Assembly (NCBI GenBank): GCA_902518985.1
Contig: CABYIF010000008.1
Coordinates: forward strand, 1 to 47,506
Source: an uncultured Alphaproteobacteria bacterium
GTDB lineage: Bacteria > Pseudomonadota > Alphaproteobacteria > HIMB59 > GCA-002718135
Direction: 5' to 3'
DNA: 47,506 nt
Of the stretch, positions 30,449 through 38,051 are shown piece by piece. Both the position numbers and the translations under genes were made by a program. Under the pieces are notes generated by a model. The model was given only the letters and a program-made list of their open reading frames with translations, did no database searches and was not told the DNA's origin. Position 1 is the first letter of the stretch. Each line of letters begins with the position of its first letter.

Positions 30449-31432
30449 TTAAGAGGCATTAAGCCATTCATTAATCCATTTTTCTTTATTTATATTAATC
30501 TCTTTTGGATCTATTTGAATAAAATTAGGTATTTCTAATTTATTAAATGCCTCAGGCAAATCTTTAATTGTTGTTACTGGATACATTATATTTGTAGACG
30601 GAATTACTGATTGAAATTCTTCTGACAGCATAAAGTTAAGAAATATATTTGCTAAATCTTTATTTTTTGAATTATTTAAGATTCCAGCAAATTCAATTGT
30701 TATATAATTTCCTTCTTCAAAGGTTGTTGCGCGAATATCATATCTGTCTTCAAACATAATATGAGCTGCAGGAGATGTAGTATAACTTAATACCATATCT
30801 GCTTCTCCTGCCATAAAAAAATTATAGTATGCATCCGTCCAACCTTTTGTAACAGAAATAATTTTTTTATTTAATTTTTTCCATTCAGTAGCAGCTTTAT
30901 CTCCATATATAGCTTTCATCCAAGTTAATAATCCTAATCCTGGGGTAGAGGTCCTGGGGTCTTGAATTACAATTCTGGCATTAGTAGAATTAATTAACTC
31001 ATCCATAGATTTTGGAGGTGTTTCTAAACTTGCCTCATTATATACAAAAGAAAAGTAGCCAAAATTATATGGAACAAATTTATTACTTTCCCAATTTAAT
31101 GGTAAATTTATAAAAGTGTTTATATTGTTAATATTATGAGTTGTGAAAAGCTCAGATTTATCTGCTAGGTCAAATAAATTCATATCAAGACCTAAAACTA
31201 TATCTGCCTTAGAAGTATCACCTTCTAAAATTACTTTATTTAATAATGTTGCCGCACTGTCAACTGCTATAAAATTAACATCTGTATTATATTTTTCTTC
31301 AAATATTTTTTCAATAATAGGTCCCGGACCCCATTCAGAAACAAAAGAGTCATAGGTATAAATAGTTAGTTTATTAGCATAGATTGAAAAAGAGATTAAT
31401 AGGGTAGTAAAAAAAATTAGAATTATTTTCAT
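30449..31432 (-). CDS. thiB: Thiamine ABC transporter substrate-binding protein
   Basis: LTIYTYDSFVSEWGPGPIIEKIFEEKYNTDVNFIAVDSAATLLNKVILEGDTSKADIVLGLDMNL; preceded by TPP riboswitch. Confidence 0.93.
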   Translation of the reverse strand: MKIILIFFTTLLISFSIYANKLTIYTYDSFVSEWGPGPIIEKIFEEKYNTDVNFIAVDSAATLLNKVILEGDTSKADIVLGLDMNLFDLADKSELFTTHNINNINTFINLPLNWESNKFVPYNFGYFSFVYNEASLETPPKSMDELINSTNARIVIQDPRTSTPGLGLLTWMKAIYGDKAATEWKKLNKKIISVTKGWTDAYYNFFMAGEADMVLSYTTSPAAHIMFEDRYDIRATTFEEGNYITIEFAGILNNSKNKDLANIFLNFMLSEEFQSVIPSTNIMYPVTTIKDLPEAFNKLEIPNFIQIDPKEININKEKWINEWLNAS

Positions 31433-31435
31433 ATT

Positions 31436-31500
31436 TCCTCCGCTGGCATTATCCAGATCAGGTTAAAAGGGTATAAATCTCAGCATTTAAGCACCCCTAA
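31436..31500 (-). ncRNA. TPP riboswitch (THI element)
   Basis: Minus strand reads TTAGGGGTGCTTAAATGCTGAGATTTATACCCTTTTAACCTGATCTGGATAATGCCAGCGGAGGA, with the canonical GGGGTGC, GCTGAGA, ACCCTTT.AACCTGATCTGG.TAATGCCAGCG blocks; ends in the thiB ribosome-binding site. Confidence 0.97.
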
Positions 31501-31581
31501 TATTATTATAGTTAATATTATTTTAGAAAACAAACATAAAAGAATTGTTTTTAATTTATATATGAATATAACAATTTTTTT

Positions 31582-35037: not shown

Positions 35038-36846
35038 ATGAGTCATTTAATTAGAAATATAGCTATAATCGCCCATGTAGATCATGGAAAAACTACTCTT
35101 ATTGATAATATTATGAAGCAGAGTGGTTCATTTAGGGTAAATCAGGAAGTGAAAGAAAGATTAATGGACTCAGGTGATTTAGAAAAGGAAAGAGGTATTA
35201 CGATCCTTGCAAAACCTACATCAGTAACTTGGAAAGAAAATAGGATTAATATTATTGATACACCGGGTCATGCCGATTTTGGTGGAGAGGTCGAAAGAGT
35301 ATTGGGAATGGCAGATGGGGTTATCTTGTTAACAGATGCAGCTGAAGGTCCAATGCCTCAAACTAAATTTGTTCTTGGTAAAGCTCTTAAACAAGGATTG
35401 AAACCTATTGTTATAATCAATAAGGTTGATAGAAATGATGCAAGACCAGAAGAAGTTTTGAATGAAGTATTTGATTTATTTGTTTCTTTAGATGCAAATG
35501 ATGAGCAATTAGATTTTCCTATTTTATATGCATCAGGAAGAGACGGCTGGTGTGTCAATGATTTAAGAAATGAAAGAGAAAATCTTTTTCCTCTACTTGA
35601 TTTAGTTCTTTCATATGTAAATCCACCTAAAGTAGATGACCAAAAGCCTTTTGCAATGTTGGCAACACTACTTGATTATGACTCCTTTTTGGGGAGGTGT
35701 CTTGTTGGTAAAGTTGAACAAGGATCAGCTAATGTTAATTCAAATGTTCATTCTATTAATTTGGATGGTAAAGTTATTGAAAAAGGAAGGTTAACTAAAT
35801 TATTTCGTTTTGAACGTACTGAAAAAGTACCCGTAAATAGAGTTCACGCTGGAGATATTATATGTATTGCTGGTCTCAAGTTAGCATCTGTATCAGATAC
35901 AATTTCAGATCCTGAAAATCATACCCCATTAAAATCCACTCCAATTGATCCACCAACTATGTCGATTAATATTTCAGTCAATTCCTCTCCATTTGCAGGT
36001 TTAGAGGGTGATAAAGTAACTTCTACCTTAATAAGAGAAAGATTATTAAACGAGGCGGAAACTAATGTTGCTATAACATTTAAAGAAAATAAAAATAAAG
36101 ATTCATTTGAAATAGGTGGTCGAGGTGAATTACAACTAGGTGTTCTTATTGAAACAATGAGGAGAGAAGGTTTTGAGATGTCAGTTTCAAGGCCTCGTGT
36201 TATTTTTAAAAAAGATAGTAGTGGACATAATTTAGAACCTATTGAAGAAGTAACTATTGATGTTGATGAGGAGTTTTCCAGCTCAGTGATTGATAGTATG
36301 AATAAAAGAAAAAGTGATATGATTGATATGCGAACTGCAGGTTCTGGAAAAACAAGGTTAATTTTTAAAGTTCCTTCAAGAGGATTAATTGGATTCCAAG
36401 GAGCCTTTTTAACACAAACAAAAGGTACTGGTGTTATAAATAGAATTTTTTCATCATACGAACTTCATAAGGGAGAATTTCCAGAAAGACGAACAGGGGT
36501 TCTTATTGCTACTGAAACGGGAACAGCAGTAGCTTTTGCTCTCTGGAAATTACAAGATAGAGGGCCAATGTTTATTGATCCTCAAATGAAAGTTTATCAG
36601 GGTATGATTGTAGGAGAGCATACTAGAGAAAATGATTTAGACATAAATGTTCTTAAAGGTAAGCAATTAACAAATGTTAGAGCCTCTGGTAATGATGAGG
36701 CAGTAAACTTAATGCCACCGAAAAAAATGTCTTTAGAGCAAATGATTGCATATATTAAAGACGATGAGTTATTAGAAGTTACTCCTAAGAGCCTTAGATT
36801 AAGAAAAAAATATCTTATACCGCATGAAAGAAAAAGAGCCTCTTAA
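35038..36846 (+). CDS. typA: Ribosome-associated GTPase TypA/BipA
   Basis: RNIAIIAHVDHGKTTLIDNIMKQSGSFR, DSGDLEKERGITILAKPTSV, DTPGHADFGGEVERVLGMADGVILLTDAAEGPMPQTKFVL. Confidence 0.97.
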   Translation: MSHLIRNIAIIAHVDHGKTTLIDNIMKQSGSFRVNQEVKERLMDSGDLEKERGITILAKPTSVTWKENRINIIDTPGHADFGGEVERVLGMADGVILLTDAAEGPMPQTKFVLGKALKQGLKPIVIINKVDRNDARPEEVLNEVFDLFVSLDANDEQLDFPILYASGRDGWCVNDLRNERENLFPLLDLVLSYVNPPKVDDQKPFAMLATLLDYDSFLGRCLVGKVEQGSANVNSNVHSINLDGKVIEKGRLTKLFRFERTEKVPVNRVHAGDIICIAGLKLASVSDTISDPENHTPLKSTPIDPPTMSINISVNSSPFAGLEGDKVTSTLIRERLLNEAETNVAITFKENKNKDSFEIGGRGELQLGVLIETMRREGFEMSVSRPRVIFKKDSSGHNLEPIEEVTIDVDEEFSSSVIDSMNKRKSDMIDMRTAGSGKTRLIFKVPSRGLIGFQGAFLTQTKGTGVINRIFSSYELHKGEFPERRTGVLIATETGTAVAFALWKLQDRGPMFIDPQMKVYQGMIVGEHTRENDLDINVLKGKQLTNVRASGNDEAVNLMPPKKMSLEQMIAYIKDDELLEVTPKSLRLRKKYLIPHERKRAS

Positions 36847-36852
36847 ATATAT

Positions 36853-37302
36853 CTATAACTCTCCTTTTATTGTATACTTAAGTATATCTACAACTTCATC
36901 AACGTTTTTTGTAACTGCATAAGCTGCAGCATCAACTTCTTTTAAAGCATGTTGATGTTCGTCATTATGAATAATAATTAATGATTTATTAAGTGCTGAT
37001 GCATATCCAGCATCAAACGCTGCATTCCATTGTTTATATTTTTCACCGAAACGAATTACAACAATATCAGATTTTTCAATAGATGAGCGAGTTCTTATAG
37101 CATTTATTTTGGCTCCTTTATTATCATGCCAAAATTTTTTATCCTCCACCCCAAGTATTCGAACACCAACATCATCTGATAATTCGTGATTTGTAATTGG
37201 ACTTAAAAATTTTATTTCTAAATTTTCTTTATTACATTTATCAATAATTTCTTTTCTCCAGTTAGTATGTATTTCCCCAGATAAATAAACTTTTAAATGC
37301 AT
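36853..37302 (-). CDS. ytoQ: YtoQ family protein
   Basis: VYLSGEIHTNWRKEII, FLSPITNHELSDDVGVRILG, KFWHDNKGAKINAIRTRSSIEKSDIVVIRFGEKYKQWNAAFDAGYA. Confidence 0.88.
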   Translation of the reverse strand: MHLKVYLSGEIHTNWRKEIIDKCNKENLEIKFLSPITNHELSDDVGVRILGVEDKKFWHDNKGAKINAIRTRSSIEKSDIVVIRFGEKYKQWNAAFDAGYASALNKSLIIIHNDEHQHALKEVDAAAYAVTKNVDEVVDILKYTIKGEL

Positions 37303-37351: not shown

Positions 37352-37381
37352 AAAAACCCTCTAAATATTTAGAGGGTTTTT
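37352..37381 (-). terminator. Perfect 30-nt palindromic terminator downstream of the small membrane protein pair
   Basis: AAAAACCCTCTAAATATTTAGAGGGTTTTT, 15-nt arms; can act on both strands. Confidence 0.88.
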
Positions 37382-37398
37382 GTTACTGTAAGGATAAC

Positions 37399-37617
37399 TT
37401 ATCGTCTAAATAAAGCGTAAAGAATTCCTAGGGTGATAATTCCAACTAGTCCACTTCCGCCTAAGTCACTAACAAGTGCTGATATATTATCAATAACATC
37501 TGCGCCAATAAAGGGAACAGCAGGACCAAAAATGACACCTAAAACCACACTTAGTGGAATTACTACCATAGCTAAATCCATTACACCTCTTAGAAAGTTT
37601 CTTATATTATCCATCAT
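37399..37617 (-). CDS. Small membrane protein, unknown function (paralog 2 of tandem pair)
   Basis: 72 aa, two hydrophobic segments; about 33 of 72 positions identical by eye to the adjacent ORF; SD AGGAG upstream. Confidence 0.8.
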   Translation of the reverse strand: MMDNIRNFLRGVMDLAMVVIPLSVVLGVIFGPAVPFIGADVIDNISALVSDLGGSGLVGIITLGILYALFRR

Positions 37618-37642
37618 GGCATTACTCCTTTAACTTAGAAGA

Positions 37643-37864
37643 TTATTTACGCAAATATAGCCATACAATGATACCAATGGCAATAATGCCCACTAAACCA
37701 TCCTGACCTAATTTTGCTGTTATCGCGATAATATTATCAAGTATGCCAACCCCTATAAAAGGAACGGCAGAACCAAATATAATTTCAAGCACTACTGCTG
37801 CAGCAATTAATAAAAGTCCAACTTCTGTTATTTGCTTCAACCAGCTTTTTATTGTATCCAGCAT
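37643..37864 (-). CDS. Small membrane protein, unknown function (paralog 1 of tandem pair)
   Basis: 73 aa, shares IFG.AVPFIG...DNI...LG..GLVGII.GI with the neighbour; SD GAGGAGAG upstream. Confidence 0.8.
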   Translation of the reverse strand: MLDTIKSWLKQITEVGLLLIAAAVVLEIIFGSAVPFIGVGILDNIIAITAKLGQDGLVGIIAIGIIVWLYLRK

Positions 37865-37895
37865 AATCTCTCCTCGATTAAAAGTTTATCACGTT

Positions 37896-37915
37896 ATTTA
37901 AGACGTTTCTTAAAT
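37896..37915. promoter_or_regulatory. Operator-like dyad or 5'-UTR hairpin upstream of the small membrane protein pair
   Basis: ATTTAAGA-CGTT-TCTTAAAT perfect 8-bp inverted repeat, 32-51 nt upstream of the 37864 start codon. Confidence 0.5.
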
Positions 37916-38051
37916 GGAGACCTAGTTATTCTTAATAATAATTAATTGAAATATAATATAAAATATATTAGTAAGTTATTGAAAAATAATAATTATTTAT
38001 CTTAATTTCTTTTCTCAATTTATAGAATCCCGAAATTATATGAAAAAAAAC

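Follow-up and report, generated by a model that had tools for sequence, protein, structure and literature searches.

Two adjacent genes, A and B, in the 47,506-nucleotide stretch of DNA that was analysed as a whole (the window) encode members of an alphaproteobacterial family of predicted inner-membrane hairpin proteins. On balance we favor the reading that this family, about half of whose genes elsewhere in the class appear to stand behind NrdR boxes and which appears to have been rewired in the HIMB59/AEGEAN-169-type order of the window, serves a response to DNA-precursor supply or replication.

Two paralogous genes in a self-contained unit

The two tandem minus-strand open reading frames (ORFs) of the preliminary description were borne out (Table 1), and its estimate by eye of about 33 identical positions of 72 proved exact in an ungapped alignment; BLASTP of A against B gave an E value of 5e-18. 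Each gene also has the separate Shine-Dalgarno (SD) motif ascribed to it, CGAGGAG before A and AAGGAGTAATG before B. A profile search detected the family, mostly as an A-B tandem, in 23 of the 162 genomes of the window's order. In codon alignments of order-level sequences the median dN/dS was 0.15 for A and 0.11 for B, with a maximum of 0.44, and thus not near 1, the value named in the preliminary description as telling against it. Because of this recurrence and the low dN/dS, A and B are taken as real coding sequence: they are genuine genes that recur mostly as an A-B tandem under purifying selection.

The dyad upstream and the terminator downstream of the pair, both previously pointed out, were located as well. 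The terminator is the only terminator-like site between positions 36800 and 38500 (0.5 expected), and a comparable hairpin stands behind B in each of the eight relatives read. Leader, pair, and terminator were found jointly at three chromosomal positions, so the unit is self-contained, as had been proposed. In the window it adjoins ytoQ and typA, and in L015 it occupies the third position. The commonest site in the order has a PfkB kinase gene, an indigoidine-A/PsuG-like gene, a RihA-like nucleoside hydrolase gene, and a PhyH gene on one side and, in several genera, mazG directly after the pair. In L018, L020, L120, L121, and L123, the T-run of the A-B terminator ends with the start codon of mazG, whose expression could therefore depend on readthrough. 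Several of these neighbours handle nucleosides or nucleotides, which is only a hint of a functional link. Across the class the neighbours are unconserved, no cluster being common to more than 7 of 41 loci, and a function read from neighbours was discarded, since no cluster is common beyond small groups. Elsewhere in the window, a thiamine pyrophosphate (TPP) riboswitch lies at 31419-31508 on the minus strand, above the Rfam gathering score.

Table 1. Positions of the gene pair, its control elements, and the adjoining gene in the window
Feature	Position	Strand	Basis or remark
Gene A, first of the pair, 73-aa membrane protein	37643-37864	minus	ORF, paralogue alignment, order-level profile matches
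Gene B, second of the pair, 72-aa paralogue of A	37399-37617	minus	ORF, BLASTP, alignment, order-level profile
Conserved single GATTC (GANTC, CcrM/GcrA-type site)	38025-38029	minus	19/19 sequences
Upstream element TTCAATAACTTA	37972-37983	minus	Conserved in the order
Leader hairpin ATTTAAG-N6-CTTAAAT	37896-37915	minus	Hairpin in 19/19 sequences
Leader pairing element CGTGATAA (CGTGATG in most relatives)	37886-37893	minus	Mismatch-free at the A-B locus only
SD region of A, TCGAGGAG	37870-37877	minus	Possible pairing of its 5' half with codons 26-27
CTTGAA inside gene A, partner of the SD region	37784-37789	minus	Complementarity
Partner element TTATCGCG inside gene A, codons 45-47	37724-37731	minus	Complementarity to the leader
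Intrinsic terminator AAAAACCCTCTAAATATTTAGAGGGTTTTT, 13-bp stem plus T-run	37352-37381	minus	Downstream of B
YtoQ-family nucleoside 2-deoxyribosyltransferase adjoining the pair	36853-37302	minus	In the relatives checked, the pair is at another locus

Distribution and architecture of the family

Beyond the window's order, the profile search found the family, as single or tandem genes, in 43 of 385 sampled alphaproteobacterial genomes (33 of 276 genera). Almost nothing was found outside the Alphaproteobacteria, a deep profile run against 399 genomes of the phylum giving one weak partial match in other classes. Viral contigs, phage collections, and plasmid collections held no homologue, so a phage or plasmid origin of the pair is unsupported and was set aside. 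Tandem partners fall in several separate clades of a poorly resolved short-sequence tree, which suggests several independent duplications and led us to reject a single ancient one.

The family gave no significant match in Pfam, NCBIfam, PHROG, or, by sequence, the PDB, and no convincing match in PADLOC. The Foldseek search suggested in the preliminary description, run with the AlphaFold model as the query against the PDB and viral models, likewise returned nothing significant. The family thus stays unassigned, as the first inspection of the sequence had it, and we found no name for it in the open-access literature and curated databases searched.

The AlphaFold model of A, built from 59 sequences, has a pLDDT of 85 and a pTM of 0.48; it predicts helices at residues 2-33, 41-54, and 57-72 and places the VPFIG turn between the first and the second. 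The family alignment shows a charged N-terminus, a first hydrophobic segment (TM1), a (V)PFxG turn, the motif N-L...LGxxGLVGLIALGI, and a basic C-terminus. The members are accordingly predicted to be inner-membrane hairpin proteins of 70 to 80 aa with two transmembrane (TM) segments, in which a basic amphipathic N-terminus would lead into TM1; the VPFxG turn and an amphipathic helix would follow, and then TM2, rich in glycine and with R/K at its end. The TM2 glycines are spaced in the alignment in a glycine-zipper-like manner, and this resemblance suggests that the glycine-rich TM helices of A and B form oligomers. Channels of the MscL type have a similar plan (amphipathic N-helix, TM1, short turn, TM2); the family is about half the length, and neither profile nor fold comparison with solved structures gave a match to MscL.

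Probable NrdR boxes upstream of family genes outside the window's order

When the 250 nt before 39 class-level members were searched for palindromes without supervision, a 16-bp palindrome, ccACtAnATnTaGTgg, emerged with a log-likelihood of 83.6, compared with 45 to 50 in shuffled (Markov-resampled) controls. We then used an independent matrix built solely from sites in ribonucleotide reductase (RNR) promoters (32 sites from 19 loci). At a score of at least 10 it matched the upstream regions of 22 of 41 family genes versus 14 of 450 other genes at the same loci (p=6e-18), and some of the strong control matches were the family gene's own box viewed from a divergent neighbour. About half of the class-level members had no scoring box. 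A runner-up site lay at 31 to 32 bp in 11 of the 22 box-bearing members.

Published NrdR boxes are 16-bp palindromes with a central AT and occur in pairs separated by about 15 bp (PMC12176259, PMC12051234). Two boxes of the regulon are expected at a spacer of 14 to 17 bp, or 31 to 32 bp centre to centre. Since the 16-bp palindromes and their 31- to 32-bp spacing match this geometry, the sites upstream of family genes outside the window's order look like NrdR boxes. In nine of the same genomes (G376, G298, G428, G209, G273, G367, G262, G456, and G388), a genome-wide scan placed the same tandem-box pattern immediately before RNR genes, and NrdR is encoded in 20 of the 23 genomes tested, the window's contig included. 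Outside the window's order the family is therefore predicted to belong to the dNTP-sensing NrdR regulon. None of 10 second-in-tandem genes had a box at a score of at least 10, so a single NrdR-box promoter would serve both genes of a tandem.

The family promoters thus resemble the known regulon in their 16-bp boxes, their 31- to 32-bp tandem spacing, and their scores with the RNR matrix. They differ from it in what they would control: the published targets of NrdR consulted here are RNR genes, in RNR operons, and, in Pseudomonas, topA (PMC4409342, PMC12176259), whereas here the genes encode small membrane proteins, for which we found no report as NrdR targets in the open-access literature. In a sister-family genome, L117 (6142-7373 plus flank), gcrA is directly followed by a diverged family pair, and an NrdR-box-like palindromic ATACTATATATAGTAT is found between gcrA and the divergent gene.

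A different promoter block in the window's order

The window's own pair departs from this pattern: the 400 nt before gene A contain no NrdR box (best score, -0.8). The RNR promoters of the order carry clear boxes, with scores of 12 to 20; one order-level relative scores above 10 before the pair, but 270 nt upstream. As the order lacks boxes before the pair, the NrdR link for A and B themselves rests on homology. An nrdR gene (TIGR00244, E=1.3e-50) lies on the window's own contig at 6971-7423 on the plus strand, some 30 kb away from the pair.

What the order has instead before A is a single GATTC, placed 163 to 174 nt before the start of A in all 19 sequences. GcrA acts at GANTC sites in Caulobacter, and it was present in all 13 order-level genomes tested. 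The near-constant position of GATTC and the presence of GcrA make a cell-cycle-type (GcrA/CcrM-type) promoter plausible for the pair in this order. A second component, TTCAATwAsTTA, occurs before the pair in two copies 81 to 83 nt apart in many relatives; the double element was rejected as a regulon-wide motif, being found at the A-B locus only. At no more than one mismatch, TTCAATAAsTTR is present in 4 of 6 order-level RNR promoters, which is suggestive of a candidate element common to the RNR and A/B promoters of the order. In the RNR promoters of L170, L171, L174, and L175, a TTCAATAAsTTG-like element about 170 to 200 nt upstream resembles the TTCAATAAsTTA elements before A and B.

A leader RNA that may pair with gene A

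Read toward gene A, the leader consists of ACTTAAG-N4/5-CTTAAGT (the form of its hairpin in most relatives, with one C-G to U-A compensatory pair), CGTGATGAAC, TTCGAGGAG, and ATG. It is close to invariant within the order. Its core was found without mismatch at the A-B locus and nowhere else in all 12 genomes with the pair that were tested, and the leader, with exact copies at that locus only, was dismissed as a regulon-wide motif. A low-threshold Rfam search returned mainly the terminator or noise, with no toxin-antitoxin match at the leader.

In most relatives, the leader element CGTGATG is complementary to CATCACG at codons 44-46 of gene A (AACATCACG), and the codons of the partner element include two rare ones, ATC (6% of Ile) and ACG (4% of Thr). 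Closer to the start, TTCGAG near the SD has its complement in CTCGAA at codons 26-27, where CTC is also rare (2% of Leu); other members have CTCGAA or CTCGAG at this site, L015 excepted. The two helices, leader/codons 44-46 and SD/codons 26-27, nest. The lineage of the window has CGTGATAA in the leader, ATC as codon 46, and a partner shifted by about one codon to TTATCGCG; the change retains eight pairs, with A-U and G-U pairs among them.

The duplex energy was compared in 15 sequences with that of 300 synonymous recodings of the same protein. The observed duplex beat the recodings at p<=0.007 in 14 of the 15, the remaining one, L033, giving p=0.047. Paired cells made up 93.2% of the alignment, versus 31 to 39% when the partners were slid by one to three columns. 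The covariation score exceeded all 500 shuffles, a test that the relatedness of the sequences weakens; two-sided (compensatory) change occurred in just two pairs, which 62 of the 500 shuffles matched, and helix 3 is broken in some members. The minimum-free-energy folds of the window, L020, L032, and L050 include the long-range CGTGAT helix.

CGTGATG and CATCACG also form an inverted repeat in DNA and the leader hardly varies within the order, so the two elements might instead be a pair of protein-binding DNA sites or the target of a small RNA. We regard this as unlikely: neither half is palindromic by itself, the second helix nests inside the first, and the window's lineage keeps complementarity through A-U and G-U pairs despite the displaced partner. 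The helix between leader and gene A, by comparison, quite probably forms, and its effect would be to mask the SD of gene A.

Discussion

Put together, these observations outline a possible mechanism. Outside the window's order, the family genes, stand-alone or in tandem and about half of them behind NrdR boxes, would be expected from those boxes to be repressed at ample dATP and induced alongside ribonucleotide reductase once DNA precursors become scarce. In the HIMB59/AEGEAN-169-type order, a block of GATTC and TTCAATwAsTTA would have replaced the boxes, placing induction in step with the cell cycle, and the structured leader, by base-pairing with the coding region of A around the SD, would tune the translation of A. 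Through their glycine-rich helices the products would assemble in the inner membrane as homo- or hetero-oligomers, which would help the cell respond to its DNA-precursor supply or its replication state.

Several readings of such an oligomer may be compared. It could be a brake on division or on the membrane, a plausible role, though one we hold with low confidence, that draws on analogy with small membrane proteins induced by DNA damage. These, division inhibitors and DinQ/TisB-type peptides, are like the family small inner-membrane proteins linked to DNA or replication stress, and DinQ too is controlled at the transcript leader (PMC6051672, PMC3567139). The family differs in its two predicted TM segments, in its predicted control by NrdR and not LexA, and in that no sequence similarity was found. 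Taken further, the likeness would make A and B type I toxin-like peptides in the style of hok, tisB, or dinQ, with pairing that silences the message and peptides that depolarise the membrane. Their small size and hydrophobicity, the extension of the leader/coding pairing to the SD, and the tandem paralogues often seen in type I toxin families would fit, as would the account of DinQ as an SOS-regulated membrane peptide with several transcripts, only one of them translated (PMC3567139). Typical type I toxins, however, are shorter and less constrained than these proteins of 70 to 80 aa, which carry a conserved internal VPFxG...N motif and show strong conservation across many families; neither an Rfam antisense RNA nor a convincing PADLOC match was found, and the family is absent from the plasmid and phage collections searched; we judge the toxin reading very unlikely.

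Nucleoside permeation is the next candidate after the brake. An oligomeric component that passes or senses nucleosides or nucleobases and feeds salvage at low dNTP would agree with the predicted co-regulation with RNR (box matches), with mazG and the RihA-like nucleoside hydrolase gene at the commonest order-level site, with the nucleoside 2-deoxyribosyltransferase family of ytoQ beside the window's pair, and with a glycine-rich TM2 suited to oligomers. It is nevertheless improbable, given neighbours that are unconserved outside the order and the lack of any significant match to a transporter family or solved channel.

Least probable by far, and disfavoured, is descent from type IV secretion system (T4SS) or conjugation pilins or TrbL-like subunits, which comes near the pilin-like role first suggested. 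The short hydrophobic hairpin recalls TrbL/VirB6 and TIGR03745/DUF2976, and there is a weak profile echo, TrbL matching 9 of 59 members (best E, 0.0022), and NF010426 13 of 59 and TIGR03745 9 of 59 (best E of the two, 2.5e-4). These matches are below cut-off where shown, and the window's protein falls far short (16.9 versus 25.9 bits for TrbL and 11.7 versus 52.5 for TIGR03745). The motif is different, the family profile found no solved pilin at E<=10, no plasmid homologue exists in the collections searched, and there is no tra/vir context and no conserved or conjugation neighbourhood (at most 7 of 41 loci per cluster). An accessory role in an energy complex fared no better, as no energy-complex neighbour recurs across loci. 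None of the roles suggested in the preliminary description gained support, and its interpretation as a whole is partly supported: the tandem paralogous membrane proteins, the independent unit, the unrecognised family, and the purifying selection hold up, and the spread of the family through the class, the NrdR boxes, and the pairing of leader and coding region go beyond it.

Our own more specific proposal is tentative and, we think, somewhat less likely to be right than wrong: the family may be a hidden second output of NrdR, directed to the membrane as a brake or a nucleoside flux, which the HIMB59/AEGEAN-169-type order has swapped to a GcrA/CcrM-type promoter and a self-pairing leader. NrdR has been described as a repressor of almost nothing but RNR. 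If the proposal is true, the recurrence of a non-enzymatic membrane target across many alphaproteobacterial families would imply that the membrane, too, receives a signal of DNA-precursor status. The NrdR boxes give an unnamed protein family a concrete handle, and the case would show how control can be rewired in a streamlined ocean lineage, from repressor sites to a promoter block and an RNA structure between leader and coding region.
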